The notes beneath the pieces were generated by a model. The model did no database searches. It was not told the origin of the DNA and saw only the letters and a program-made list of their open reading frames with translations. From the IMG/VR virus record IMGVR_UViG_3300005101_000022, positions 1-29,529 of that record: 29,529 nucleotides of DNA; one strand, given 5' to 3'. The stretch is from a virus. The stretch's first letter is position 1. Each line of letters begins with the position of its first letter. Shown piece by piece: positions 3,339-26,283 of this stretch. The translations under genes and the position numbers were made by a program.

Positions 3339-4760
3339 CTATCTAAATGCGTCGATGCGTGATAATAATGCGTCCAATCGATTGTCTTGAGTATCCAAAA
3401 CAAGCCGTAAGTTATTATCTCCTACACTATATTCCATAGTAGTTGCCTGACCGCTTTTAATGCCGTCTATACGGCTTGTTAAATCAGTAATAGATGCAAA
3501 TAGGTCAAAGGTGAAATATGATTTTCCATATTTAATTGGAAACCATAAAGGCTGCTTTTGTAGTGCATCGTTATAGATATAGGGAGAAGATATTTCAATT
3601 GGGCGTCCCATCTGAGGCTGCGAATATTTACCAAGATACATATCACGGTAAGTATTGGCAACATCGGGCACTGAATCGCCACCACTAATAATGGCTTCGC
3701 GCTCCCAATAAGTTGATTGACTATCGGTATTTTCAGCAGCGTCCGTGATAGTTAAGTAATTGCTATCTGCCATGTTACGGTATATAATTCTTACATTATT
3801 GCGCAATTCGTTGATATTGCGTGTTGCCGAAGATGATTTTGTCATCCATTTTTTAATGATCCAATCTGCTCGGCTATCTGTGGTTTGTGGCTTGAAGTAA
3901 GGTATAGGTAAAGTTGGCTTAACACCGTCTAGGCGTCCATTGACTACGTAATAATTCCATTGCCTATTTTGTGAATCTGACATAGAAGTCAATTTATCAA
4001 TTAGTTCAGAAGGATACATGCCGCCCTGTTCTATATCCGGCTCCCAGAATCCAATAACAGTGTTAGTTTCATCTATATTATTTTGGTTATCGCTTATAAA
4101 ATCTACTTCCCCTAGTGCTTCTTTTACAATTTCGGTAGTAGTTTTATGATCATAACATTTTGTTATTTCATAAACTGATGGTGTTTTATCAGTAGGATCT
4201 GCACCATTAAATCCAGCCGTGGTCAGCGCATAATCCTGATAAACGGCAATTGTCTGCCCACTGTTAGAGCTAGCTCCAGCAAAGCCCCAGGTAATTGAAT
4301 CGTCATCGTTGGTAATTTCTATCTCATAAACAGCATCGCCACTTGTTGTTTCCCACTCAGAGAAATCTTGTCCATCATCGGTAAAGTTGTTAGTACCATA
4401 TGATAGATTGCCTTGATGCTGATCTAGGATTGTTGTGTCAAAGGCATATTTTTTATCAGAGTGCCGGAACCAGGCGCACCTTGCAATGACATTTACTCCT
4501 GATGGCGTTATTGACATATCGGCAATGAAGCCATCCATCACAGGTATGTCTAGATATTGATCTACCACAATTAATCTTTTCCCTAAATGCTCTTTATAAA
4601 ATCGGTAGGCGTCATCATAATGGACGCCAAAGTTAATTTCGACACTTTGTCCGCCACCATTTAATTCCCAAATGAAGTTCATATCGCTAGTACGATATGT
4701 TATATTGCGTATAATCTTGGGATCATTTAAATCATTGGTGTAAATATAAGAGCTTAACAT
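3339..4760 (-). CDS. Minor tail / tail-tip protein
   Basis: A 473-residue protein encoded directly after the distal-tail-like protein. Its ATG overlaps the upstream stop as TAATG, which implies translational coupling. The N-terminal 110 residues are beta-rich with aromatic and Asp residues (DMNFIWELNGGGQ, VVDQYLDIPVMDGFIADM). The rest looks like a multi-domain beta protein, with a middle region rich in Thr/Asp. No peptidase or lysozyme motif is visible, so it is not a classical tail-associated lysin. Position between the Dit-like protein and the fibre suggests a baseplate hub or Tal-like N-terminal role that joins the distal tail to the fibre. The family is not recognised with certainty; function is inferred from order. 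Confidence 0.7.
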   Translation of the reverse strand: MLSSYIYTNDLNDPKIIRNITYRTSDMNFIWELNGGGQSVEINFGVHYDDAYRFYKEHLGKRLIVVDQYLDIPVMDGFIADMSITPSGVNVIARCAWFRHSDKKYAFDTTILDQHQGNLSYGTNNFTDDGQDFSEWETTSGDAVYEIEITNDDDSITWGFAGASSNSGQTIAVYQDYALTTAGFNGADPTDKTPSVYEITKCYDHKTTTEIVKEALGEVDFISDNQNNIDETNTVIGFWEPDIEQGGMYPSELIDKLTSMSDSQNRQWNYYVVNGRLDGVKPTLPIPYFKPQTTDSRADWIIKKWMTKSSSATRNINELRNNVRIIYRNMADSNYLTITDAAENTDSQSTYWEREAIISGGDSVPDVANTYRDMYLGKYSQPQMGRPIEISSPYIYNDALQKQPLWFPIKYGKSYFTFDLFASITDLTSRIDGIKSGQATTMEYSVGDNNLRLVLDTQDNRLDALLSRIDAFR

Positions 4761-6766
4761 TAGAACAACACCATTTCAGCTTGGTTGTCATAATCTCCTA
4801 ATATCAAATCTGTGCGGGGGCGATATGTAATTTCGAATTCACCCATTTTAGTACATGCGTGTTGATGATCATATATTGTATCTTTATATATTTCATGCAT
4901 GGCAAAGATTCTATTAAATCTGCTAGGTACGATTTTAATACGGGCACCGGCCTCTTGGCGTACAAATCCCACTAAGGAATCATCGTCATCATCTAGCCGA
5001 TACTCAATCATATCATCTTTGTCGCTAGGGATTTTTAAAATACCATAATATGTGCTGAAGTTGAAAGCCTCTGGCTGACAAATTAAATATCCATTGTCTA
5101 TTTGCCAGTATGTTATAAAATCAAGATTAAAAGTATGTGTTCCAGACGCACCGCTGTATTTAGCCGACATTCCAGCGCGAGGCGTTACATCTGTGCCACT
5201 ACCTGCGTCTTCGAACCAGCTGCTATCTTGTTGATTAGATACATGTATAGGCGGCAAGGGTGTAATGCGCCATTCATTTGTTGCTAAATCTGTAATATCA
5301 TAATCTGGTGATTCATAATCAATGGTTTCATAACCATTAAAGTATTCTTTAGAATCTGAAAAGTTAAATTCATTATAAATTGACCAAGTGATAAGATTTA
5401 CATCAGCGCTGGTAGAAGTTTTGAAACATATTAAAGGCAATATTGGCCCCTCTAGATTATTACCAACATTGAAATAATATGAGAATTCCGTTTCTCCGGA
5501 TACATCAACAGTTTTATAGAAATTGTTGCTTCTGCTTGAGTCTGATACTTCTGTTCCTGAACCACCACTAAGACTTGGTGATTCAAAATAAAATGTATTC
5601 TTAGCGATGTTTTTTCTTGAGCTGGCTGCCAAGAATAAACGTCTTAAATCGGTGATACCCTTAATATATATATCTGGATATACCGGATAATCACCCGCTA
5701 AATCTTGTATATCGAGATATGTAACAGTACCCTCGGTGTTTGGTTCTTCATAGCTATATAAATGTTTAGAGCTGACCCATCCGGTTGGTATTTTTGATAC
5801 CCCAACTTGTAAATAAGACTGATCAACAAAAAAGCCAGAAGATTCACTAGCGTCGCCACTATCTCTATATACGCTGAAACGAACTTGGGTTGAACTTGCT
5901 GATATATTGCTGCTTATTTCAATTCTTTTCCATGTATTGCCGTTATTGCCAGTTTTTGTTTCGCTAGCGCTGCTGTATGTAGATGTGCTAACTGAAGTCC
6001 ATGTCGAGCCATCATATTCTTCGATTTCAGCTGTTATTTCGTCAGAGCTTTGTGAATAAACCCAGGCATATCCTACAATACTTTTTCCACCATCTACATC
6101 CACAGCATCACTTTGAATGCCCTCTTTAGAAGACGCATCAAATTCTACCTTTTGGCTTTGACTGCCGCAAATATAATTTGTAGTATCAATTGATGTTGTC
6201 GGTGCACCTATCTTGCTCCATTGGTCTGCTAAACCATTATCGTTACTGTCCTTTTCAAAATGTGGAGTACCTAATTCATTACATAAAGTAATTTCTTCTC
6301 CATATCCAATGGGTTCAGTCTCAATAACAATTTGTAAACCATCATCAAAAATTAAATCCTGCGTGCTACGATTAAACCAATTAAATATCGATATACCATC
6401 ATATGAAATATCAACTATATCATAATAGGTAGGATTATTTATACCATCTAATTTAATATAAAGTTTAACCTTATCAACATCATCCTGTTGATAATAACGT
6501 CTAGCCGAATATGAAAATCGACTTAATTCATTAAGCAGTTTAGCCACGTCTGAATCACTTCCGGCCTCAGACGCTACTGAAAATTCCCATTGTCGATTAT
6601 TCATTTTTGATCTAACGAGATATTTGCCTTCTTGCCACGGGCTATTATGATATTGGTTGTTATGTTCTGCGATACCGAAACTAGCGCCATCGGCAATCAT
6701 AGAAAAATCAGAAGCATTGAGATGCAATTCATTTGTACCATCTGTAATTTTGATAATGTCAGCCAT
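4760..6766 (-). CDS. Distal tail (Dit-like) protein with inserted carbohydrate-binding module
   Basis: A 668-residue protein immediately downstream of the tape measure gene (2-base gap), the normal place of a Dit/minor tail protein. Residues 1-150 look like a tail-tube/Dit-type beta domain (EGKYLVRSKMNNRQWEFSV at about 47-65). Residues about 168-322 (starting PHFEKDSNDNGLADQWSKIG, ending GFFVDQSYLQVG) have the layout of a CBM_4_9-like carbohydrate-binding beta-sandwich. The remaining 340 residues are again beta-rich and end in a Dit-like C-terminal section (EFEITYRPRTDLILGDYDNQ). Likely role: distal tail ring with built-in glycan binding. The gene is markedly AT-rich. The Dit assignment rests on order and general fold pattern; the CBM call rests on motif resemblance. 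Confidence 0.7.
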   Translation of the reverse strand: MADIIKITDGTNELHLNASDFSMIADGASFGIAEHNNQYHNSPWQEGKYLVRSKMNNRQWEFSVASEAGSDSDVAKLLNELSRFSYSARRYYQQDDVDKVKLYIKLDGINNPTYYDIVDISYDGISIFNWFNRSTQDLIFDDGLQIVIETEPIGYGEEITLCNELGTPHFEKDSNDNGLADQWSKIGAPTTSIDTTNYICGSQSQKVEFDASSKEGIQSDAVDVDGGKSIVGYAWVYSQSSDEITAEIEEYDGSTWTSVSTSTYSSASETKTGNNGNTWKRIEISSNISASSTQVRFSVYRDSGDASESSGFFVDQSYLQVGVSKIPTGWVSSKHLYSYEEPNTEGTVTYLDIQDLAGDYPVYPDIYIKGITDLRRLFLAASSRKNIAKNTFYFESPSLSGGSGTEVSDSSRSNNFYKTVDVSGETEFSYYFNVGNNLEGPILPLICFKTSTSADVNLITWSIYNEFNFSDSKEYFNGYETIDYESPDYDITDLATNEWRITPLPPIHVSNQQDSSWFEDAGSGTDVTPRAGMSAKYSGASGTHTFNLDFITYWQIDNGYLICQPEAFNFSTYYGILKIPSDKDDMIEYRLDDDDDSLVGFVRQEAGARIKIVPSRFNRIFAMHEIYKDTIYDHQHACTKMGEFEITYRPRTDLILGDYDNQAEMVLF

Positions 6767-9700: not shown

Positions 9701-10548
9701 TCACCAATCAGAGAGAAGGCGAGGTTCGCGTTCTTTAACATTGATGTAGTATCAAGCGCGCCATTGGTTATTTGCTGCATCTTTTTAATCATCGTATCAG
9801 CGCTTTCGTTGAAGCCGCTGATATGCGCCGTTGCTTGTTGCACAAAGTTTGCGAAGGTTACACGTACAGACTGAATTGCCCCAGTTTGTTGTCCCAGATT
9901 CTTAATACTGCGCCCAATACTACGTATGCCATGATAACCTATCATGCCAGCAATAATTGACATGATGTTACTATTGGCAAATGTATTGAAAAAAGCACGC
10001 AATGGAGCAGTAGGAATACGTGTAACAGCGCCAACTAAACTTTTAATTCCGCTGGTGGTTCTCTTAATAACTCCAATGACCTGTTTACCAAAGGCGCTAA
10101 CTAGAGTTTTACCGGCTTTAGCAGTAGCAGAGATTAAGCCGCGAGTTGCGTTAGATTGGATTTTGAGTAGGTTAGAAAAAGTGCCGCTAGATTTTGCAGC
10201 GCTTTTAATATTCGCGGCCAGGTTTTGATGTTTGGCGGCGTTGACTGTAATGGTTTTAGTACCAGTTTCATTGCGACGAATATTAACAGTAGCCTGGGTG
10301 TTTAGGCGCTTCATGGCTTGTGAAACTATTTCATAAGCCGCCGCTGTTTGTTCAGCCGTGGTGCTGGTGTTGCGCAAACTAACTGTAAAGCCAGAGAATT
10401 TATCGCTTGTACCTTCTGTCCTGGCACCAATTACAGTTTGAGTTACGCCTATTTCAGATAATTTCTGTTTGAGATTATCAATCTCATTAGAAATTATCTT
10501 GGAGTTGCTTGAAAATTTAAAATGAATGCGCCCTGTTCTATCGGCCAT
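6769..10548 (-). CDS. Tape measure protein
   Basis: At 1259 residues this is the longest complete gene in the window. It directly follows the G/GT chaperone gene, with its ATG overlapping the GT stop as TAATG. The protein is mostly helical, with Gly/Ala-rich hydrophobic segments at about 190-215, 915-950 and 985-1020 that could insert into membrane during DNA delivery. The motif typical of tape measure C-termini is present at about 1160 (HSPSRVMMDIGSDIMQGL). A related copy lies near 530 (SPGSPPRVAPMLDVWGEE). A Lys/Arg/Glu-rich coiled-coil stretch spans about 590-690. At the usual roughly 0.15 nm per residue it would set a tail of about 190 nm (inference). It is assembled inside the tail tube with help from the upstream chaperones. 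Confidence 0.92.
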   Translation of the reverse strand: MADRTGRIHFKFSSNSKIISNEIDNLKQKLSEIGVTQTVIGARTEGTSDKFSGFTVSLRNTSTTAEQTAAAYEIVSQAMKRLNTQATVNIRRNETGTKTITVNAAKHQNLAANIKSAAKSSGTFSNLLKIQSNATRGLISATAKAGKTLVSAFGKQVIGVIKRTTSGIKSLVGAVTRIPTAPLRAFFNTFANSNIMSIIAGMIGYHGIRSIGRSIKNLGQQTGAIQSVRVTFANFVQQATAHISGFNESADTMIKKMQQITNGALDTTSMLKNANLAFSLIGDQAGTHMPKMLQIAQASALATGQEFDYMFQSLVKAAGRLSTRWADNLGITLSTTEAYQRYAQEINTTADALTHQQRVTAMLNELMRKGEDVILKVGDAQLFLKTQTQALGSSFKDMRDEVISDVAPLFTVIIGYINDFINNAKPKILNWVQGFMDAFAQMPSAVDRAAKEMAGMSPLFVQQAMQPIKQGSEMMGYHAAEWAVNAASWGANVMAQFASGMIQGFAAAVVAAMNMISSVLAHWLSPGSPPRVAPMLDVWGEEAMGEWVQGMLNYPIEKELPKIAGDLKKVLEGGVKDALFQSAIDSLAGWTKGMSQLDMEFILDSLDRALNKAKELNKVLTKSYKEQRTELFKLQVLNKDPAGVRAQLNKVKATKKSLKANEAEINTLEARKKIVRDQLDLMRLLLRAMDDMAKKSGGAGRKGRSGGAGDLMQSMPEFNVATPLAGTSDLAKRIAGIKETLSGIFEDPLEQIQTSWNDAFGEGSDFQTSLSTLQGQFAAVEEAGGLGSVIENWIRASDAGNTLWVTGENILDSVTSLIDGVQESGGLRSFAEDLLGSSENGKKFLGIIESVSEFFQGGGFMDAVGEVGSYFEDVLAPAIEIVKPPLIELWDTFKEAAGDINWGQKLKALATVLGSIFITAIAVATGVLNGLVKAFRWIIVTQKKFHDGLVSMGDGFKEIWNGIKNLKIKQIFNGIGKVIMGFIDSVIAWFAGPFAAIGSLIWGIITGIIGYFKELYDKIVGHSIIPDLIEKMKDLWNSGVQFILDLAQHLKNQVIVRFRILKSKLRLLWYNIKTKAVEVWENLKNSIITKVLTIKEQVQEKINAIKIWLEEQIDKWKQVGKDLIQGLKDGIKAELENIAEAIVGPVLNAIEQLKQLTSTHSPSRVMMDIGSDIMQGLVLGMEKFASVPTDIIGDTAGFAAMSPAMASGRATPATSAVTHNVYVSGPIVERVVVPNRQASRQFAKDIATEISDMTNVRRR

Positions 10549-11353
10549 TAACTTTCCTTGTTATTTTTATTGCCGCTAATAGTTTGCATGAATTTTATCA
10601 TTTTCTCTTTTTCGCTTTGTCCGGATTTGGGTTGAGACTTTTTAGCAAGATTATGTAATCTCTCACTAGTTAGCTGATCTGAATCAATATCTAGGGCCTC
10701 GTCGTCACCGCTTAATGCAAACAGTATTCGCTGGCGATCAACCGGATCAACATTTTTAATATCGCGGTTGTATTCTTGTGCCAAATCTCGCCATCGCCTG
10801 ATGCGCAGTAGCTTTAATAACAACAGGCCATCCTCGTCAGCTAGCTCGGATGGTCTGCAATGGAGCAATTCAACAAGACTCAAGATGATAGCCGATATTG
10901 GAACTGCTCCCTCATCATTGATAATAGTTCGGACGAGGCTTACTGAGGGTTTGGGTTTTCTGTTCCGCCAGAGGCTTCCTCAAACCATGCCTGCACAAGA
11001 TATGAAATCTCGTCAATAGAAAAATTACAAATATCTTCAGCTGTTGGTTTATAGACTTTACCATTGCCAACAGGCTTGCCAACTACTTCGCCAGTACGCG
11101 GATTTGTCCACGTCCAGCTCTCAATAGCAGATTCCAAAGAATGGCTTAAATGGTCACGAATAAACTTCATGACCTCACGTTCATTATCTTCCTGGTCTGC
11201 CATTTCCTCATATTCAATGAGGGCGGTTAAATCGGAGAAGGGTAAGTAGCAAATAAAATTAACCTCTTCTCCTTCATGATATTTATATTCTTCTTCGCCA
11301 AATGATACAACGCAGTCGTCCGATTTGCGATTAGAGATTGGTAAATTTTTCAT
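10548..11353 (-). CDS. Tail assembly chaperone GT (made by -1 frameshift)
   Basis: The frame ending at 10548 is open upstream past its apparent TTG start (10883) into the end of the preceding gene and needs no start of its own. A -1 slip at the tandem heptamers at 10946-10958 joins it to the G frame, giving about 134 + 134 = 268 residues. That is close to the lambda gpGT length of 279. The T part is helical and charged (LHCRPSELADEDGLLLLKLL, then a Lys/Ser/Gln-rich tail ending SGNKNNKES). In lambda-like phages G and GT are made at a fixed ratio and load the tape measure protein for tail tube assembly. Gene order (tail tube, G/GT, tape measure) agrees. The join is inferred from reading frame and signal. 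Confidence 0.82.
10910..10938 (-). other. RNA stem-loop downstream of the frameshift site
   Basis: On the minus strand CCTCGTC (10938-10932) can pair with GATGAGG (10916-10910). The stem has seven pairs including one G-U, with a 15-base loop. It begins 7 bases after the second slippery heptamer, the spacing usual for a frameshift-stimulating stem or pseudoknot. Found by eye, with no energy calculation. Confidence 0.55.
10940..11353 (-). CDS. Tail assembly chaperone G
   Basis: A 137-residue acidic protein between the tail tube gene and the tape measure gene, in the place and of the size of lambda gpG (140 residues). It starts MKNLPISNRKSDDCVVSF and has a helical middle rich in Glu (about 45-75). 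It ends in TENPNPQ, whose codons form the slippery site for the GT product. An AAGGA-type ribosome site lies before the ATG. The primary sequence is not similar to any family I can name. The assignment rests on size, order and the frameshift signal at its 3' end. Confidence 0.8.
   Translation of the reverse strand: MKNLPISNRKSDDCVVSFGEEEYKYHEGEEVNFICYLPFSDLTALIEYEEMADQEDNEREVMKFIRDHLSHSLESAIESWTWTNPRTGEVVGKPVGNGKVYKPTAEDICNFSIDEISYLVQAWFEEASGGTENPNPQ
10946..10958 (-). promoter_or_regulatory. Programmed -1 frameshift site (tandem slippery heptamers)
   Basis: Read on the minus strand, the last codons of G are GAA AAC CCA AAC CCT CAG TAA. This gives two overlapping X XXY YYZ heptamers in the correct phase: A AAC CCA (10958-10952) and A AAC CCT (10952-10946). 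A -1 slip at either enters the T frame, which is open to 10548. The G stop follows only two codons after the second site. Confidence 0.8.
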
Positions 11354-11403: not shown

Positions 11404-11805
11404 TTATGCGCCGAAACCTAGTGTTTGCAGCTCGCCAGCGATAATTCCACCAAAATCGGCGGCCCACATATCGCCTGCTGCGCCCGATGCTTCCCAGGAT
11501 TGCATTTGTCCATCAAAGTACCATCCTGTTGTAACATCAGTACGGTCTGGGTAGATGGAAATAACACTTGTTGTAGTAGAAACGGATAATACCTCATCAA
11601 GCAATACTTTTGTTTCTGTATCAACTAGCGCCGATCCAGAAAACTCTCCACCATAAGGGCCCACGCGAGCAATTTTATACTCTTGGCCCATGATCGACTC
11701 TTCGGCTGTGTCTCTATCAATAGACACGCTGAGCTCTTGAACAAAATCAATCAATGAGCCATCTATATACAGCGCACCCTGAATACCAGTTTTGAATGTT
11801 GCCAT
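11404..11805 (-). CDS. Major tail (tube) protein
   Basis: A 133-residue protein just upstream of the G/GT chaperone genes, the standard place of the major tail protein in siphoviruses. The start MATFKTGIQGALYIDGSLID and the section with VQELSVSIDRDTAEESIMG fit the beta-sandwich tail-tube fold ("...G.L.ID....GV.d.siS.d..." pattern). The C-terminus is Gly/Ala-rich with Trp and Phe. A strong AAGGAG ribosome site precedes the ATG, as expected for an abundant virion protein. It sits directly downstream of the glycosyltransferase cassette, so it is a plausible glycosylation target (inference). The protein is at the short end for the family. Confidence 0.78.
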   Translation of the reverse strand: MATFKTGIQGALYIDGSLIDFVQELSVSIDRDTAEESIMGQEYKIARVGPYGGEFSGSALVDTETKVLLDEVLSVSTTTSVISIYPDRTDVTTGWYFDGQMQSWEASGAAGDMWAADFGGIIAGELQTLGFGA

Positions 11806-11853: not shown

Positions 11854-12891
11854 TTAAGTGTTTTTCTGTCTGATGCCAACCTTACACAAGAACGCTTTGG
11901 CGCGTTCTGTGTAAGAATGCTTCTGGACAGCCGAATGTTGTTTTTTCGCTATTTCCCGTCGCTCATCGTCATGCTCAAGATAATAATGAATTAAAGAATC
12001 AAGCTCCGCGCCGGACTCAAATGTCACAGCGTTCTTCCCGAATAATTCATAAATACCAGGACGATACTCTGAAATAACTAAAGTGCCACAAGCAGCAGCC
12101 TCATATGGGCGTGCTGATAAAGAAACCGCTTCAGTTATTTTATGTTTGCCCTCGAAATCCTGAGATATACGATTAAGGTTGATCACAATCTTGCTACCGG
12201 CATAGTAGAGAGCTGCGATACGGTTGGGAATCACAGTCTCTTTATAATATGGCGCAAGCGGATGTCCGTAATCAATGGGATACTTACCGAACAATTTAAA
12301 ATCTATATCAGTCCAATCTACTTGTGAAAGTATTTGTATGCGTTCTGGGTATCCATTGCCTACAAATACCACGTCAGATTGGTAAGTATCTGCTACTGAC
12401 ATAGGGTGGTGGACTTCCTCATCATACCCAACAGGCAAATAAGGAACTCCCATAATTTCTGCACTATGTTTATCATTGACAAACATATAATCTGCAAATT
12501 TGTTAATCCACGCAACAATGTGATCGAAGTATGGACTTTCTGTGCCTATTACTATAGTTGGAATGCGCATACGGCGCATCCACAAATAAAAATCTTTATG
12601 AATAGAGCTACCATCTATAATGATGGTATAGTCCGGACTGTTTTCCATGACGCGCATTGCTGCTTCTAAAGAGGCTGATTTTACTATATCTTGTTGTGTA
12701 TATTGATAATTAGGATCACCTCTTGTTATTCCTCGAAAGCGATGATATTCTGTCCAATCAATAATCAATTGATTTAATTTTACAGTATTGGTATGATATC
12801 CTAATCCACGCAAGGCATTTTTGTAACCTTCGGCAACATCATAATTGCCACTCGATTGTCCAGGGTATACCAATGATAAACGCTCTTTCAT
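11854..12891 (-). CDS. Glycosyltransferase, group 1 / CgeB-like (GT-B fold)
   Basis: A 345-residue protein. The N-terminal half has an alpha/beta pattern with LVYPGQSSGNYDVAEGY at the start and HIVAWINKFADYMFVND at 124-140. A middle VVFVGNGYPER (174-184) opens the second Rossmann domain. Residues about 257-284 carry the donor-nucleotide signature of the Glyco_trans_1_2/CgeB group (LSARPYEAAACGTLVISEYR, then ELF). Role: transfer of a sugar from an activated nucleotide-sugar donor; substrate unknown. Its ATG directly follows the stop of the upstream GT-A enzyme (TAAATG), so the three glycosyltransferases form one unit. Phage enzymes like this are known either to glycosylate virion proteins or to alter host surface or DNA. 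The tail-module position favours virion modification (inference). Confidence 0.85.
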   Translation of the reverse strand: MKERLSLVYPGQSSGNYDVAEGYKNALRGLGYHTNTVKLNQLIIDWTEYHRFRGITRGDPNYQYTQQDIVKSASLEAAMRVMENSPDYTIIIDGSSIHKDFYLWMRRMRIPTIVIGTESPYFDHIVAWINKFADYMFVNDKHSAEIMGVPYLPVGYDEEVHHPMSVADTYQSDVVFVGNGYPERIQILSQVDWTDIDFKLFGKYPIDYGHPLAPYYKETVIPNRIAALYYAGSKIVINLNRISQDFEGKHKITEAVSLSARPYEAAACGTLVISEYRPGIYELFGKNAVTFESGAELDSLIHYYLEHDDERREIAKKQHSAVQKHSYTERAKAFLCKVGIRQKNT

Positions 12892-13665
12892 TTATACTCC
12901 GTATTCCGGATCAAAGCCATATATTTCTTTAAATTTGTAACGATTGATACTACGCTGTTTAATCCAATCAAAGAAATCCTCTAATCCTTTTTGGCGGCGT
13001 GAAAATAAATCATCACCGTGATCAAGGTGCTTAACGATTACATCTGTATCAATCGCAAATTTACATCCTGCTCTGTGACAATCATATGCCCATGCAATAT
13101 CTTCAAATCCCCAATTGTGATTAAACTCCTCCCGATGGTGTAGAGTCTTGGCGATATCCATAGGTAAACTAAATGCGTGCCCACTGGCATATTGCCAGCG
13201 TGATGTAATAGCCACCTCTTTGGGATTACTAATGCGTTCCCAAAATTCATCAACTTGTTTTTGTGTGCCGCGCTTGATGGCGTTTTCAATACGGTTATAA
13301 ACAAACCACGGCCCATCAGAACGTGATTGCCACCCAATATGACTTTCTACCCAATTGGGCGGATATACCACATCATCTTGTGTGCCAATGTAAATATCGC
13401 CCCGCGCTGCTTGTAGTCCCAAGTTATTTGCCGTTGCACGCGCTGGGAACCATCCTGGCGGACGATATGGCTCTTTTATAAATGTTAAATCAAAATCATA
13501 ATCCTGTTCAAGAATATATTGATAAACTAACCAATCATTGTCTGACGCTACTAATACAAGTTCAAAATCTTGTGTTGATTGCTTTTTCAGGCTTTCAAAT
13601 GATTGCTTGAAATATTGTAGCTTGCTATCAGCTACAACATCAATAATAGACGGACGGCACAACAT
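12892..13665 (-). CDS. Glycosyltransferase family 2-type (GT-A fold), chondroitin-polymerase-like C-terminus
   Basis: A 257-residue enzyme. The N-terminus keeps the GT2 pattern (YFKQSFESLKKQSTQDFELV, about 18-37) but lacks the usual first-strand PTYNR motif. A metal/nucleotide DxD-like site is present as TQDDVVYP (95-102). Near the C-terminus, NWGFEDIAWAYDCHRAGCKF (184-203) matches the acceptor/catalytic W-G-x-E-D-x-D region of galactosyl- or chondroitin-type transferases, followed by H213. The ATG at 13665 has an AAGGA ribosome site and overlaps the upstream gene by 34 bases. An in-frame stop just upstream excludes a longer N-terminus. It probably adds a hexose or amino sugar; acceptor unknown. 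Confidence 0.82.
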   Translation of the reverse strand: MLCRPSIIDVVADSKLQYFKQSFESLKKQSTQDFELVLVASDNDWLVYQYILEQDYDFDLTFIKEPYRPPGWFPARATANNLGLQAARGDIYIGTQDDVVYPPNWVESHIGWQSRSDGPWFVYNRIENAIKRGTQKQVDEFWERISNPKEVAITSRWQYASGHAFSLPMDIAKTLHHREEFNHNWGFEDIAWAYDCHRAGCKFAIDTDVIVKHLDHGDDLFSRRQKGLEDFFDWIKQRSINRYKFKEIYGFDPEYGV

Positions 13666-14273
13666 AGCATTTCCTTAACATCTTTTATTCCTAATTGGCT
13701 TTGATCATCTTTTATATATCCAACTGGCATATATTTAATTCGCATACCATATTTTTTTATCAATCCTAATATTTCAAAATTAGTGGCGTGTCCATTGCTT
13801 TTGACCCGATCTAAAATTGAATCAACAGTATGCAAATTATAAGTTCGGTATCCAAATGTTGCATCACGTATTCTTTCACCGACTAGTATAGACATAAGAA
13901 GTGCGGCTAAACGACTAAATATTTTGCGTTTAGTGAAACCCTCTAGGTTCCGTTGTCGCACTACAACGTCTGTAATTGGGCATACATCTTTTAAAATCCA
14001 TCTGGGATCACAAGTTCCTACGTCCATTACGGTAGCGTAGTCACACTGCATTAAGCGAGCATATTTAAGACCATCGATGATGGCCTTGCCATAGCCACGC
14101 TTTTTGTCACTTTCAAGCACAATAGCGCCTTTTTGCTGAGCAATTTCAGACGTGCGATCATCTCCATCTACTACAACGATAGTGCGCAAACCAATTTTGT
14201 TAATTTGGTCTAGTAATTTGCCTATTCTTTCTTCTTCATTGTATGCTGGTATAACAATCACATGCCTATACAT
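13632..14273 (-). CDS. Glycosyltransferase family 2, dolichol-phosphate-mannosyltransferase-like
   Basis: A 213-residue protein with a clear GT2 N-terminus (VIVIPAYNEEERIGKLLDQI, 6-25), a VVDGDDRT site (34-41) and a KRGYGKAIIDGLKYA segment (58-72) typical of polyprenyl-phosphate mannosyl/glucosyl transferases. The usual MDADxxHxP metal site appears as MDVGTCDP (83-90), so the second Asp of DxD is replaced by Gly. D84 is kept, and D89 could substitute. There is no C-terminal membrane segment. It could charge a lipid carrier or act directly on protein; substrate unknown. It overlaps the coiled-coil gene upstream by 8 bases and the next glycosyltransferase by 34, indicating an operon. Confidence 0.85.
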   Translation of the reverse strand: MYRHVIVIPAYNEEERIGKLLDQINKIGLRTIVVVDGDDRTSEIAQQKGAIVLESDKKRGYGKAIIDGLKYARLMQCDYATVMDVGTCDPRWILKDVCPITDVVVRQRNLEGFTKRKIFSRLAALLMSILVGERIRDATFGYRTYNLHTVDSILDRVKSNGHATNFEILGLIKKYGMRIKYMPVGYIKDDQSQLGIKDVKEMLCCAVRLLLML

Positions 14274-14787
14274 CTTCTAGTAACCTTTGCTCAGCCTCTT
14301 CTGCTCTTTGTTCAGCTTTGCGACGCTTTTGCTTTTCTCTTGATAGACGATTTTCTAATTCGCATATTTCGTCTTTGAGATCTTTTATCTCTTGATCATA
14401 TTTTTTGATCATCGATTGATTTTCCGCTTGCATCTTTGATAGCTGCTCACGGTATTCTTCTTGTAAATTATCGAGCCTAGCATATAATTTATTTAGCTCA
14501 TCTTCATAACGCTGGCGCAATTTTTTTCTTTCTTCGTAGCTCTGTTCGTAAATCATGTCTACGCGCCTACGCAGGTCTTGAATCTTTTTATCATATGCCT
14601 TAATTAGATTTTCATTTCTGGCATTGACGCGCTCCAGGCTGTCATAACCTTGTTTAATAACCTTTGCTCTATCAGCGGCAGAAGAGCTAATGACTTTAAA
14701 CAAAGCTACAACGAATACAATGGTGGCCCCAATCGCAGCAAACAAAGATTGCCACGTTAGGACTACGCCCCCTTCGAATTCCGGCAT
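14266..14787 (-). CDS. Membrane-anchored coiled-coil protein
   Basis: A 173-residue protein if started at the ATG at 14787, which overlaps the stop of the upstream 50-residue gene as TAATG. A longer start at 14802 is possible but less likely. One transmembrane segment lies at about 7-29 (WQSLFAAIGATIVFVVALF). An almost continuous Lys/Glu/Arg-rich coiled coil follows to the end (about 36-170), without Pro or Gly breaks. It lies directly before three glycosyltransferases, so it might scaffold them at the membrane. It might instead be an i-spanin-like lysis protein (N-terminal anchor plus coiled coil) or an unusual tail component. Function not determined. Confidence 0.75.
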   Translation of the reverse strand: MPEFEGGVVLTWQSLFAAIGATIVFVVALFKVISSSAADRAKVIKQGYDSLERVNARNENLIKAYDKKIQDLRRRVDMIYEQSYEERKKLRQRYEDELNKLYARLDNLQEEYREQLSKMQAENQSMIKKYDQEIKDLKDEICELENRLSREKQKRRKAEQRAEEAEQRLLEDV

Positions 14788-14939
14788 TATTCTTCGTACC
14801 AAACAATAATTGTCAACCCCTGGTTTGGTACATAAATTTCATTCATTCTTTGTACTACGATGTCGCCGCTGTCCAGGAAATCGTTGATCTTTTGTTGAAG
14901 GATAGATACATTATTGCTATATATAATTCTGCACTTCAT
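14787..14939 (-). CDS. Small 50-residue protein, unknown (Cse60-like pattern)
   Basis: A short gene filling the only gap in this part of the operon. It has an ATG at 14939 with GGAG upstream and a stop at 14787-14789 that overlaps the next ATG as TAATG. The protein starts MKCRIIYSNNVSILQQKIND and ends in IIVWYEE: a beta-alpha-beta-like layout with charged ends. The pattern (short beta strand, QxxINDFL helix, later strands ending in IxY/E) resembles the small Cse60/DUF2758 family, but the match is weak. Spacing, ribosome site and overlap argue that it is translated. Function unknown. Confidence 0.65.
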   Translation of the reverse strand: MKCRIIYSNNVSILQQKINDFLDSGDIVVQRMNEIYVPNQGLTIIVWYEE

Positions 14940-14942
14940 ATT

Positions 14943-15392
14943 CTACTCCAAAAAGTCGGGAGTATATAATTGCTCAACAGTAATATTTAACTGCCTATAC
15001 ATACCAACTTTAGTTCCTTGCTCTGTTACCATAGTAATTCTTTCAGCGCCGCTTACAAAAGCCTTTTCAACAGTGTTATCTAAACGATGATATTGGTCTA
15101 TTGTATCGCGTACATTTTGCACGTCTTCTCTAAGATTATTTGCGGTTTCGTCATGATAAGTGAATCTGCGCCATATTAGGGCATGAAAAACCCAGAGGTT
15201 GCGGTAGGCTCCCATATAAGCGTTATCTGGCCCAGATTCTTCTAGCGTTCCATCTGTAAAGATAACAGCAGTGTCTAAGCCAGAATTTAAAATACTAAAA
15301 TCATTTTTAGAAACATTTTGATCATCATAATTAGCATGGGTTTTTATGATTTCAACCATCTTGTCTAGAATTGTTTCATCTTGTGCTGTCAT
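14943..15392 (-). CDS. Tail terminator / neck protein candidate
   Basis: A 149-residue protein downstream of the HK97 gp10-like gene, with one base between them, in the usual place of a tail terminator (lambda gpU-like) gene. The N-terminal helix (ETILDKMVEIIKTHANY), a middle with FTDGTLEESGPD and a beta-rich C-terminus (QLNITVEQLYTPDFLE) fit the alpha/beta terminator fold in which helices pack on a sheet. No diagnostic motif is known to me, so the assignment relies on order and size. Expected role: a hexameric ring capping the tail tube and joining it to the neck. Confidence 0.6.
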   Translation of the reverse strand: MTAQDETILDKMVEIIKTHANYDDQNVSKNDFSILNSGLDTAVIFTDGTLEESGPDNAYMGAYRNLWVFHALIWRRFTYHDETANNLREDVQNVRDTIDQYHRLDNTVEKAFVSGAERITMVTEQGTKVGMYRQLNITVEQLYTPDFLE

Positions 15393-15393
15393 A

Positions 15394-15918
15394 TTATACC
15401 CTTTCTACGTAAGCAATGACGACTTCGCCATATTTGCGTCTAACGCGGTCAACTTCTTTTTGGCTTTCAGATGAATAAATTGTTAAAGTATCAAAAGGAA
15501 ATGCCATTGTGCCGCGGGTTCTTTGTTGATACATAGACGTACCAACTTTCTTGATTGATTCCTGGACGGCATAGGCGGCTTCAGCGTCTCCTAATTTTTG
15601 TTGCGCCCAGGGTTTTAAGTCATCTATTGATACTGTTCTGGGAGGGCCACCATGCAAAATATTATGGATAGTTTGCTCAGAATGTCCCTGGCTGGCAATA
15701 TTGGGCCCGATAGTTGTAGAAACCGTATCGCCATGCTCTTCAACGAAGAAACCAACTGAGTTTTCAAGCGCTCCGGTATATTGAATATCACGCATTTTAG
15801 TACGCATTATGCGTACGTGGCGTTTGCCTAATTGACGCATAAGCTTGCGCTTTGTGCGCTTGTCGCTGTTAAATATCGCCTCTTTTAAGCGATTAAGAAA
15901 TTCTATAATACCTTTCAT
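15394..15918 (-). CDS. HK97 gp10-like tail-completion / neck protein
   Basis: A 174-residue basic protein with an ATGA overlap with the gene upstream. The N-terminal helices are rich in Lys/Arg (KRTKRKLMRQLGKRHVRIMR, about 21-40). The phrase YTGALENSVG (47-56) matches the "tG.L..Si" signature of HK97 gp10-family neck proteins. TVSTTIGPNI (65-74) and HNILHGGPP (85-93) match the following strand-and-loop region of that family. Expected role: head-tail joining, between the DNA-completion protein and the tail terminator. Family level fairly sure. Confidence 0.75.
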   Translation of the reverse strand: MKGIIEFLNRLKEAIFNSDKRTKRKLMRQLGKRHVRIMRTKMRDIQYTGALENSVGFFVEEHGDTVSTTIGPNIASQGHSEQTIHNILHGGPPRTVSIDDLKPWAQQKLGDAEAAYAVQESIKKVGTSMYQQRTRGTMAFPFDTLTIYSSESQKEVDRVRRKYGEVVIAYVERV

Positions 15919-16895
15919 GTACGATCAAACATATTCATTTTGAATTTAGGCTGAATAATCGAATCGTCGTCACGAGTGTCATCGCGCTCATCGGTATCTA
16001 TATGCCCGGCGCTAGGCACTGCTAGTCCGCGATCTGCACTCTCGCTATCTTCGATGGCCCTTGCAATGCCCTCATTATTTAATAGAGCATCGCGCAATTC
16101 ATAAAATCGACTACGATATGCAGATGCAGGTGTATCGCCGTCTTGGATTGCAAATCCATCATTTGAATGGGCCATGTGCGCTGACATGGCTATACCCCAT
16201 AAAGCATATGGGTTCACTAAATTGATTGCGGCACTTGTAGACAGCGGAGTGTCAATACCCGCCCCGTCAAGCCAACCATCTATCATGTCAGATGTATCGT
16301 CCATGATGTCTACAATTTCTGCGACGGTGGGATTAGATTCATTGTTAAAAGCGCCGCGCTGACTCATGCGGCGCAATAAGGCTTCAACTTTATGCAGTTC
16401 TCCATATACGGTGCTACGACTTGATGAATATAATTTAAAACATATATCTGTTTCGGTGGTAATCGTCGCCCATCCACCATCATTGTCATATGCCGAACCA
16501 TATGTATAATATGGATCAGTCTGATCCGCGCTGACAGAAATATCATTACTCGCGTCTTGCGTGTAACCAGCGCTAGGCGTTAATACGATATAATAAGTTG
16601 TATCTGCGCTGAGAAAAGGGCGATTGCTCATATCAAATGAAAAATCCACCCACGCATAATCAGTATCAATATTAGATATTAAAACTGGATCTGATGTGCC
16701 GTTACTAATGGCGGCATTCGGGCCGCCGTCATCATCATAAATAGATACTTGTAAATACCCACCAGGAGATCCAGTACGTTTGAGATATAGCTGTATGCGC
16801 CCAATACTCATAGCCGATTTGAGACTAAACGCCTGGGCGTATTCGTTTTCTAATGTCAATTCATCATTATGGGCAACATACTGCTCAATTAGCAT
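15915..16895 (-). CDS. Head-completion (gp36/DUF1320-like) protein with extra N-terminal beta-sandwich
   Basis: A 326-residue protein with two visible parts. Residues about 18-158 look like the anchor-type beta-sandwich found in surface and fibre proteins (SIGRIQLYLKRTGSPGGYLQ, 31-50, then VSIYDDDGGPN and TTYYIVLTP). Residues about 188-282 are helical and resemble head-completion proteins such as Mu gp36: VAEIVDIMDDTSDMIDGWLD (191-210), NLVNPYALWGIAMSAHMAHS (226-245) and YRSRFYELRDALLNNEGIA (260-278). The last 40 residues are acidic and probably disordered. Gene order (head genes, this gene, gp10-like, terminator) supports a head-completion role. The N-terminal domain is unusual for this class and may decorate the neck (inference). 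Confidence 0.62.
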   Translation of the reverse strand: MLIEQYVAHNDELTLENEYAQAFSLKSAMSIGRIQLYLKRTGSPGGYLQVSIYDDDGGPNAAISNGTSDPVLISNIDTDYAWVDFSFDMSNRPFLSADTTYYIVLTPSAGYTQDASNDISVSADQTDPYYTYGSAYDNDGGWATITTETDICFKLYSSSRSTVYGELHKVEALLRRMSQRGAFNNESNPTVAEIVDIMDDTSDMIDGWLDGAGIDTPLSTSAAINLVNPYALWGIAMSAHMAHSNDGFAIQDGDTPASAYRSRFYELRDALLNNEGIARAIEDSESADRGLAVPSAGHIDTDERDDTRDDDSIIQPKFKMNMFDRT

Positions 16896-17770: not shown

Positions 17771-17998
17771 TTACTCCTTATGTACTCTTTCGTAGTGTAG
17801 GTGGCGCGCAGCCTCAGTTAAAAACTCCGCGCCACACTCACCACATTCTAGAGTACTTTTATCATTGTAATCACGGACTAGGCCTACCTCGCGGATGCGC
17901 CCATCATTGCGCATTCCTCTCAGCCGAAACACCTCACCCGGCACTCGTTTTTGCCCAGCATATCCAAAGGATCTCTTAGCAACTACCTGATGACTCAT
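17771..17998 (-). CDS. Small C2H2 zinc-finger protein
   Basis: A 75-residue protein between the major capsid gene and a decoration-like gene. The N-terminal 45 residues are basic and beta-like (VVAKRSFGYAGQKRVPGEVF). The C-terminus holds a regular C2H2 finger: C52, C55, H68, H73, with spacings C-x2-C-x12-H-x4-H (CGECGAEFLTEAARHLHYER). Such fingers bind zinc and may bind nucleic acid or protein. A ribosome site (AGGAG) lies upstream. In this place it could act in capsid assembly or be packaged, but nothing in the sequence decides. Confidence 0.75.
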   Translation of the reverse strand: MSHQVVAKRSFGYAGQKRVPGEVFRLRGMRNDGRIREVGLVRDYNDKSTLECGECGAEFLTEAARHLHYERVHKE

Positions 17999-24092: not shown

Positions 24093-25748
24093 CTATCTAT
24101 GTGGGTTCCATTTATTACTTATATTTGAATAATTGCGCCATCCACCGGTACCAGACATTTGTCTGTCTGGATTCGGCAATGTACTGAATTTTTGTCTTCC
24201 GCCAACGATGGCATAACGCAAAGCATCGGCAAAGTCTCCCCCTTTGTTGGCCGGCCTATCGTGATCATATACCCCCTTAATTTGTTTACATTGGTATACA
24301 TTCGATATAACATTATCTAACATCGGGCAGCGCTCTGGATCAATGAACAGCTGTGAAACTCCGGCGTTATTTCTAATTAAATCGCGAATAACACCTAACC
24401 CATAAGCAACATTATAAACTTCCTTAGGAATGGTTTTCCCATGCAGATCCCTGGGCCAATCGCTCATTAAATCTTCCGCTGCCTTCTCAGCCCAGAAAAC
24501 GTTTAAATGCAAACCAAACTCCTCAAGCATTTGGTATTTAAGTCTTTGCGCTGCCTGAATGAGCTTATTGGGCGTACTGCTGTTATTATGCCATTCGGCA
24601 ATAGCCCAACGCTCAATAATTTCCTCTCCGTTATATACACGCGGCGGGCGCTCAGCAATTACAACAATGCGCCCCCTACTCCGCTGGTCAACTCCAGCAT
24701 AACAACTCCACTTCGAAAGATCCTCGGCATCCTCTGGGGGAAATGTTCTGCGATTGTCATCGCTGTATTGCGGATACACTAATCCTTGTTTAGACCCAGT
24801 TAATAAAAGATATTGTAAAGCAAAGTTATCTGCGCTTGTAGTTAAAAATTTTGTTACTACATCGCGATAACTATAATGTCCGTTTGCTTCCGCGCCGCGC
24901 CCTTTACAAAGCTCCTCTTCTTTCCCTGTATAGGGGTTGTTCCATTTATATAAGGGGCACTTTTCACATTCTGTTGGATATTCGTATCCACAAGATTGCA
25001 TGACATCGAAAATATCAAATTCATAAATAGCAATACCTTTTTCTTCGGCATCATCGATCATATCTTGCATTGTACCGGTAGAATGATATTGACTAGAAGC
25101 CATGACGATGAGAGATTCATAACCATTCTTTGACATAGGCATCTGTAAAGCAGTATCCAATACTAGCTTGTCCATATGGTCAATCTCATCAGCTAGAAGT
25201 ACTTGTGGGTGTGGGCCAGATACAGAACGAATAGAACCGCCGGTTCGAATCTCTAATTTACTTTGGTTCGTTAATACAGTTTTACTTACTTTCGGCTCAT
25301 CACCTAACAACTTGCTAAAATATGGCTTATGAATCATGCCAGAGATGCCATCAGAGCCTGGATCGCCAGCATAGTAGGCATATCCGTCTCTGGATTGCCC
25401 CTCGGTTCCCCCGATGTATACAATACTTATTTTCTTTTTAAAGACCGTTAGCAAAACTTCTAAGATCGCTAAAGATAAAGTCTTACCACCGCCGCGGCAA
25501 CCGCGGACTAGAATTAAACCGGTGCGCCCGAAAAAGGCATCTGCAATGAATTGAAACGGTGTTTTGTGTCCCTCGGTAGTTGGTTCGCGCACCATATCGA
25601 AACCCAAAACATCACGAATCCAAGTATGTAGTTCATCATTGTCTTGCGGTTCTACTAGGGCCTTATCGGACGTGCGTCTTTCTATTTCAGATTTTAGGTC
25701 TTGGAGTAATTGCCGTGCTATTTTTTCTTCGTATTCATTACTCTGCAT
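24093..25748 (-). CDS. Terminase large subunit
   Basis: ATPase-nuclease that pumps DNA into proheads and cuts it. Numbered from the alternative upstream ATG at 25754: Walker A GCRGGGKT (85-92), Walker B VLLADEID (185-192), coupling motif ASSQYHSTG (219-227), nuclease domain opening YAGVDQRSRG with D356 and a final nuclease motif GGDFADALRYAI near the C-terminus. A cysteine cluster (C255, C263, C266, C283; CEKCPLYKW) lies between ATPase and nuclease domains and may bind metal. The ATG at 25748 is favoured because GAGG sits 6 bases before it; the one at 25754 would leave no spacer. The gene overlaps the small subunit gene by 11 bases. Confidence 0.93.
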   Translation of the reverse strand: MQSNEYEEKIARQLLQDLKSEIERRTSDKALVEPQDNDELHTWIRDVLGFDMVREPTTEGHKTPFQFIADAFFGRTGLILVRGCRGGGKTLSLAILEVLLTVFKKKISIVYIGGTEGQSRDGYAYYAGDPGSDGISGMIHKPYFSKLLGDEPKVSKTVLTNQSKLEIRTGGSIRSVSGPHPQVLLADEIDHMDKLVLDTALQMPMSKNGYESLIVMASSQYHSTGTMQDMIDDAEEKGIAIYEFDIFDVMQSCGYEYPTECEKCPLYKWNNPYTGKEEELCKGRGAEANGHYSYRDVVTKFLTTSADNFALQYLLLTGSKQGLVYPQYSDDNRRTFPPEDAEDLSKWSCYAGVDQRSRGRIVVIAERPPRVYNGEEIIERWAIAEWHNNSSTPNKLIQAAQRLKYQMLEEFGLHLNVFWAEKAAEDLMSDWPRDLHGKTIPKEVYNVAYGLGVIRDLIRNNAGVSQLFIDPERCPMLDNVISNVYQCKQIKGVYDHDRPANKGGDFADALRYAIVGGRQKFSTLPNPDRQMSGTGGWRNYSNISNKWNPHR

Positions 25749-26283
25749 CAGCATCCTCTACTGGCAATGCCTCGACATCAATAATGTCACCAATGCCATG
25801 CCCCTGACTTAATGCATCTTGTACGCGCTGTACCATAATACGTAAATCATTATCAGACAAATCTGACAAATCAAATATTTGTTTGGCGTCTACGTTAGTT
25901 TGAGAGATATTAACATTGGTGCCCGCAGAAGGCTTAGTAATACTATGTGCGATTTTAATTAAATCCGCAGGGTCTTTATCAGTAAGAGGTTGTCCGGCCA
26001 TTCGCCTGCGCTCCATGCGCTCTTCAAGCATGGTTTGCAAATAGGCGACTTGCCGTACTGGGTTAGCTAATGGTACACGCTGTAATCTTTCATTTAGTTT
26101 TTTTTGAAAGCGCCTCGCGGTATCAGTATTCCCGCGCATTAAGTGATATATATATGATTCACTACAATCGCAGGCTTCTGCTACATCAGATGCATCTCCG
26201 GCCAATAAAGTGCCACCACGCGCTACCATTTCTTCTAATACGGCTAATTGTTTTTCTGTTAATGGTTTAATCGGTGCGGCCAT
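25738..26283 (-). CDS. Terminase small subunit
   Basis: A 181-residue protein that is first in the minus-strand operon and overlaps the large subunit gene. A helix-turn-helix lies in the N-terminal third (DASDVAEACDCSESYIYHLM, 30-49), as in DNA-recognition domains of small terminases. A helical oligomerisation region follows (LQTMLEERMERRRMAGQPLT) and the C-terminus is acidic (DVEALPVEDADAE), usual for the part contacting the large subunit. It recognises the packaging site and regulates the motor. A GGAG site lies 8 bases ahead of the ATG. Confidence 0.82.
   Translation of the reverse strand: MAAPIKPLTEKQLAVLEEMVARGGTLLAGDASDVAEACDCSESYIYHLMRGNTDTARRFQKKLNERLQRVPLANPVRQVAYLQTMLEERMERRRMAGQPLTDKDPADLIKIAHSITKPSAGTNVNISQTNVDAKQIFDLSDLSDNDLRIMVQRVQDALSQGHGIGDIIDVEALPVEDADAE

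Follow-up and report, generated by a model that had tools for sequence, protein, structure and literature searches.

Why does a phage carry three glycosyltransferase genes in the middle of its tail genes, and what would the encoded enzymes glycosylate? The question is raised by a 29.5-kb fragment of an uncultured phage from a virus record (the window, i.e. the whole stretch of 29,529 nucleotides that was analysed), whose minus strand encodes, in this order, terminase, portal, capsid, neck, tail tube, tape measure and distal tail proteins. Downstream of the neck/tail-terminator genes and ahead of the tail tube gene come, in the order of transcription, a 50-aa ORF, a coiled-coil protein, two GT-A enzymes (GT2a and GT2b) and one GT-B enzyme. 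The features of the region are the following:

11404..11805, minus strand: tail tube protein, 133 aa, likely acceptor (AlphaFold fold match; 55% identity to the tail tube of contig L014; Tyr signature)
11854..12891, minus strand: 345-aa glycosyltransferase of the GT-B type, central to the module (PF13524, 87.8 bits; GT4-like model; conserved beside the tail tube gene)
12892..13665, minus strand: GT2b, 257-aa glycosyltransferase of the GT-A type, motifs QDD and WGFED (PF00535, 31.2 bits; same order in L014 and L185)
13632..14273, minus strand: GT2a, GT-A glycosyltransferase, 213 aa, second Asp of the DxD motif missing (PF00535, 46.0 bits; similarity to polyprenyl-phosphate sugar synthases)
14266..14787 (to 14802 with a TTG start), minus strand: coiled-coil protein, 173 aa from the ATG, one N-terminal hydrophobic segment
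14787..14939, minus strand: 50-aa ORF whose stop overlaps the start of the coiled-coil gene (TAATG); family searches gave no match
14943..15392, minus strand: tail-terminator-like gene by position, 149 aa, upstream border of the block (30% identity to its positional counterpart in L014)

The initial annotation had described a coiled-coil gene and three glycosyltransferase genes at this place, two of the GT-A and one of the GT-B type. All four ORFs do exist on the minus strand, and the enzyme types were borne out by two matches to PF00535 (cut-off 23.3 bits) and one to PF13524 (cut-off 25 bits), all above the Pfam cut-offs; the ORF at 14787-14939 was absent from the earlier gene set. The ORFs of the cassette abut or overlap by 8-34 bp, and the genes at 14943-16895 are neck/tail-terminator-like as judged by synteny. 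The virion genes on either side span GC contents of 0.366-0.474, and since the cassette (0.375-0.402) falls within this span, there is no sign that it was imported recently.

The nearest relatives of the capsid and portal proteins of the window are found, at 34-38% identity, in phages of Arthrobacter, Microbacterium and Roseobacter. Just after the capsid gene, a small protein with a zinc-finger-like motif is encoded at 17771-17998 (minus strand), a position that is kept in many capsid-related contigs. The gene at 24093-25754 (minus strand) is TerL-like by position and sequence; it gave no PHROG or Pfam match and a single distant match in a cultured phage. Two genes at 10548-11353 (minus strand), between the tail tube and tape measure genes, are placed like tail assembly chaperones. 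A contig of a near-identical phage (L004, 7014 bp, capsid 99% identical) supports the assembly of the head region of the window; it ends inside the capsid gene and therefore stops short of the cassette.

The GT-B enzyme belongs to the CgeB-like family PF13524. Its structural model (pLDDT 93.6) has the two-domain GT-B structure and is GT4-like, the solved structures that it matches best being those of MshA and BshA, both of them retaining enzymes (E about 1e-12). Residues E118, R184, R241, R261 and E264, among others, are invariant in 31 members of the GT-B set. In one clade of relatives, dN/dS is about 0.12, which denotes purifying selection and, therefore, a gene kept functional in that clade. 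The CgeB family also includes the glycosyltransferases of Bacillus spore proteins, to which the full-family similarity is weak (22.8% identity for CgeB, for example); unlike them, the phage enzymes form a distinct clade linked to the tail tube gene.

When single proteins (GT-B, GT2b or GT2a) were used to scan viral contigs, the outcome was either no relative or one that was irrelevant, and for this reason the block looked like an orphan until alignments of the capsid and of the enzyme family were used. The capsid protein alignment yielded 80 related contigs, while the scan of IMG/VR with an alignment of four GT-B proteins yielded 71 loci. In 64 of the 66 loci with enough DNA, the tail tube gene begins between -61 and +555 bp from the end of the GT-B match. 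Since many of these loci are near copies of each other, the fair count is that of clusters, which is 23 of 25 at 70% identity and 16 of 18 at 50%. The exceptions are L185, where the tail tube gene is 6.7 kb away, and L197, where none was found nearby. In several loci (L260, L263 to L267 and L292) the stop of the GT-B gene overlaps the start of the tail tube gene, an arrangement that fits translational coupling.

It should be noted that the tail tube profile was built from neighbours of GT-B genes, and hence was partly trained on the loci being scored; for this reason, a reverse search was run, starting from the tail tube. An alignment of tail tubes retrieved 24 loci. Of the 23 whose upstream region was available, 21 encode GT-B there (E below 1e-110), and 13 of these 21 were on contigs not seen before; the independence of this search is limited, its seeds having been taken from GT-B loci. 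Searches of about 1,200 genomes belonging to three phyla found one pair of the phage type, again with overlapping genes, on a contig of a metagenome-assembled genome (L292). Remoter GT-B relatives in cellular genomes had no tail tube gene in the DNA fetched, about 1.5 kb on each side. Among cultured phages, tblastn searches with GT-B and GT2b of the window, the GT-B proteins of L219 and L193, and the tail tube of L200 gave no significant match. The literature search, in which Freeman et al. (2023) was represented by the papers citing it, returned no earlier description of the GT-B and tail tube pair. The suggestion of the initial annotation that the enzymes are linked to the virion is thus upheld and becomes more specific, in that GT-B lies nearly always beside the tail tube gene in diverse contigs. 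Homologues consistently located away from virion genes, or tied to modification of DNA bases or of the cell wall, were looked for, and this pattern was not observed.

The complete set of three enzymes was found in only three phages, i.e. in the window, L014 and L185. In L014, a 92.7-kb contig with a capsid 65% identical to that of the window, the same three genes lie in the same order between a tail-terminator-like gene and the tail tube gene, with identities of 44% (GT2a), 56-57% (GT2b), 44% (GT-B) and 55% (tail tube); since enzymes, order and place all recur, the cassette is more than a chance assemblage. In L185, the enzymes are again in the same order, with identities of 28-30%, 34% and 37% for GT2a, GT2b and GT-B, respectively; next comes a large gene that includes an M23 peptidase domain, and the tail tube gene lies 6.7 kb further on. 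The L185 record (G058, 64 kb) has seven places that match PF00535, two of which are the GT2 genes of the set.

Elsewhere, the partners of GT-B vary. It stands alone directly before the tail tube gene in L025 and is fused to a GT2 domain at the same place in L026; in L188, the gene preceding GT-B is a tail terminator (PF12691). Other partners are a separate GT2, an adjacent or fused methyltransferase, or a second GT-B. GT2 genes were present in 11 of 26 records with GT-B vs 4 of 46 capsid-related records without it (Fisher p = 0.0017, the samples not being random). This pattern would be that of a fixed initiating enzyme accompanied by changing finishing enzymes.

Several other genes were observed in these contigs. 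A methyltransferase domain is fused to GT-B in L292 (982-2580, plus strand), where the fusion gene overlaps the start of the tail tube gene, and a methyltransferase is encoded directly before GT-B in L237 (7126-7686, plus strand); both recall the methyltransferase domain of Che8 gp108. A GT41 gene, similar to O-GlcNAc transferases (PF13844, 104 bits), is located between the head and neck genes of L026 (12515-13981, plus strand), the record with the GT2-GT-B fusion and the only one of the 26 GT-B records with such a gene. In L015, a close relative by capsid (63%), two GT-A-like ORFs unrelated to the glycosyltransferases of the window lie just after the decoration gene (12060-12713 and 12933-13658, plus strand). 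In L273, the gene between GT-B and the tail tube gene (3689-4894, plus strand) encodes a second copy of the tail tube with a C-terminal domain of LamG-like appearance.

GT2b keeps a GT-A-like site (QDD and WGFED) in the window and in L014, and similar motifs are found in L185. GT2a resembles the models of dolichol-phosphate mannose synthase, AglJ and PpgS, as well as GtrB, over partial to near full length; however, it is far below the curated equivalog cut-offs (60.6 bits vs 375 for the best model), no flippase was found with it in 27 records, and its DxD motif is incomplete in all three phages (MDVG, MDVG and MDSG). The motif is present in 65 of 80 homologues of GT2a from genomes. GT2a may be metal-independent, repurposed or weak. 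In the search of cultured phages, the only hits of GT2a, together with a weak one of GT2b, were unverified and unannotated gut contigs, and these were set aside.

The protein encoded at 11404-11805 can be identified as the tail tube protein from its tail-tube beta-sandwich fold and from the position of its gene beside chaperone-like genes and the tape measure gene; its AlphaFold model (pLDDT 72.8) matches solved structures of tail tubes and of other tail proteins with that fold (monocin MttP, R4C and lambda gpV) with E of about 1e-6 to 1e-5. Tail tubes linked to GT-B have a Tyr-rich hairpin, xYxYP..YYYG. The Tyr before the Pro is present in all 23 dereplicated GT-B-linked tail tubes vs about 1 of 32 relatives that lack a GT-B link; for a Tyr in the N-terminal region, the comparison is 22 of 23 vs none. 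In the window, the signature consists of Tyr13 (11767-11769), Tyr85 (11551-11553) and Tyr96 (11518-11520). Two unpaired relatives found later, L276 and L277, have a hairpin of the LELR..KFSG type or alike, yet the N-terminal Tyr is present. On the tree of tail tubes the GT-B label has to change just once or twice, and the signature could therefore reflect shared ancestry; moreover, the scan went through every column for several types of residue, so that some differences are expected. The hairpin is best regarded as a lead to the acceptor site rather than as proof of it. Ser/Thr in the hairpin loop was considered as a universal acceptor and rejected, these residues not being conserved.

The closest precedent is provided by mycobacteriophages which, according to three reports (PMC12363180, PMC11600133, PMC12619734), glycosylate virion proteins, including the capsid and the tail tube, with glycosyltransferases of their own. 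Glycosylation of the virion in Che8 (gp108-110), Corndog and Myrna was described by Freeman et al. (2023), as cited in PMC12363180, PMC11600133, PMC11256854 and PMC12619734. The likeness to the window lies in phage-encoded glycosyltransferases whose genes are clustered in threes, in some cases together with a methyltransferase; tail tube and capsid are known targets in that system. The systems differ in that Che8 gp108-110 (GT2-methyltransferase, GT2-like and GT25 proteins) are encoded at the far end of the genome, whereas the core of the window is a GT-B gene adjoining the tail tube gene. The enzymes of Che8 and of the window showed no similarity by BLAST or HHalign and belong to different Pfam families. 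If the module works as its genes suggest, it would work like the mycobacteriophage system, while its enzymes would not be members of that system. As for O-GlcNAc transferases, a gene of this type is present in the virion module of L026 and absent from the window.

The initial annotation had gone further, and had proposed a self-contained four-gene system with a possible membrane scaffold. The search for the whole block in other phages, which it had recommended, was fruitful as regards the three enzymes, which recur in the same order in two further phages. The coiled-coil gene is not conserved, and the unit that recurs is GT-B with the tail tube gene, so that the proposal of a four-gene set is not supported. 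No homologue of the coiled-coil protein was detected in L014 or L185. The same place is occupied by helical proteins of different sequence, in L014 by an 85-aa membrane protein and a 196-aa protein, and in L185 by a 109-aa protein with a hydrophobic end. The protein itself has one hydrophobic segment near its N-terminus and gave only weak, sub-threshold matches to coiled-coil families, which were rejected as compositional. Judging from its distribution, the protein is probably dispensable to the system. That it might hold the three enzymes in a complex at the membrane is very unlikely in our opinion: the helical proteins found at that place in L014 and L185 speak for it, but they share no detectable homology, and a spanin-like or tail-accessory role would be equally likely.

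The enzymes could also act on something other than the tail tube. One possibility, which we regard as rather unlikely, is that they modify another virion protein (capsid, decoration, fibre or tape measure protein) and are encoded beside the tail tube gene for the sake of late and high expression. The mycobacteriophage enzymes modify the capsid as well as the tail tube, and the head regions of L015 and L026 contain other glycosyltransferase genes; nevertheless, late expression alone leaves unexplained why 16 of 18 clusters are beside one particular gene, and why the change of the tail tube hairpin co-occurs. A role in building or altering host glycans, either lipid-linked or at the cell surface, as in GtrB-like conversion or superinfection exclusion, appears distinctly improbable. 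It would account for the similarity of GT2a to polyprenyl-phosphate sugar synthases and GtrB; however, GT2a is present in only three of these phages while GT-B is general, the site is inside the late virion operon, and the arrangement of GtrA beside GtrB, as in surface glycan conversion of the GtrABC type, was not seen, the GtrA flippase (PF04138) being found in none of 27 records (with the window itself fragmentary). Least of all would we expect the enzymes to glycosylate modified bases of the phage DNA. Thymidylate-synthase-family genes are the usual source of hydroxymethylated bases. Such genes were found in just 2 of 27 records, fragments in which an absence weighs little, and an action on DNA gives no reason for the linkage with the tail tube. 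Phage glycosyltransferases acting on DNA are, on the other hand, known (PMC12619734).

We therefore favour, and consider reasonably probable, glycosylation of the tail tube by a dedicated GT-B enzyme to which GT2 enzymes are added. It is supported by the linkage observed from both sides, the shared set of three enzymes, the variation of the partners, the dN/dS value, the Tyr-rich hairpin and the mycobacteriophage precedent. Against it count the possible inheritance of GT-B and tail tube as one linked unit, the broken adjacency in L185 and L197, and the lack of a complete DxD in GT2a. The block would be a late-expressed, phage-encoded module for virion glycosylation, in which GT-B would use a nucleotide sugar of the host as donor and, in the cytoplasm, glycosylate freshly synthesised tail tube subunits, either ahead of tube assembly or while it proceeds. 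In the phage of the window, the glycan would then be extended or varied by GT2b and probably also by GT2a, whereas in relatives this place is taken by other modifiers, namely a GT2 fused to GT-B, a methyltransferase or an additional GT-B. The acceptor residue would be one of the hairpin tyrosines or else lie in the hairpin loop. That GT-B is catalytically active, that the tail tube is the acceptor, which residue is modified and in what order the enzymes act are inferences. The benefit might be shielding, stability or adsorption; the initial annotation had suggested possible effects on immune escape or virion stability. A bolder version, which we put forward tentatively and with some doubt, is that these GT-B enzymes are an undescribed, widespread family specific for tail tubes, fixed with its substrate as a two-gene unit and glycosylating the Tyr-rich hairpin, possibly by O-glycosylation of tyrosine, in uncultured phages of diverse kinds, the glycan being diversified by additional glycosyltransferases and methyltransferases.

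In the literature surveyed, glycosylation of phage virion proteins has so far been demonstrated only in a few mycobacteriophages. The module described here is apparently a widespread new variant of it, with enzymes unrelated to those of Che8. The presence of GT-B beside the tail tube gene in dozens of uncultured phages suggests a sugar coat on the tails, put there by the phages themselves, and a glycosyltransferase fixed to the tail tube gene across at least 16 clusters would, if the reading is true, make tail decoration a common trait of phages. Enzyme and likely substrate can now be named as a testable pair, which may offer small two-gene systems for the study of protein glycosylation.
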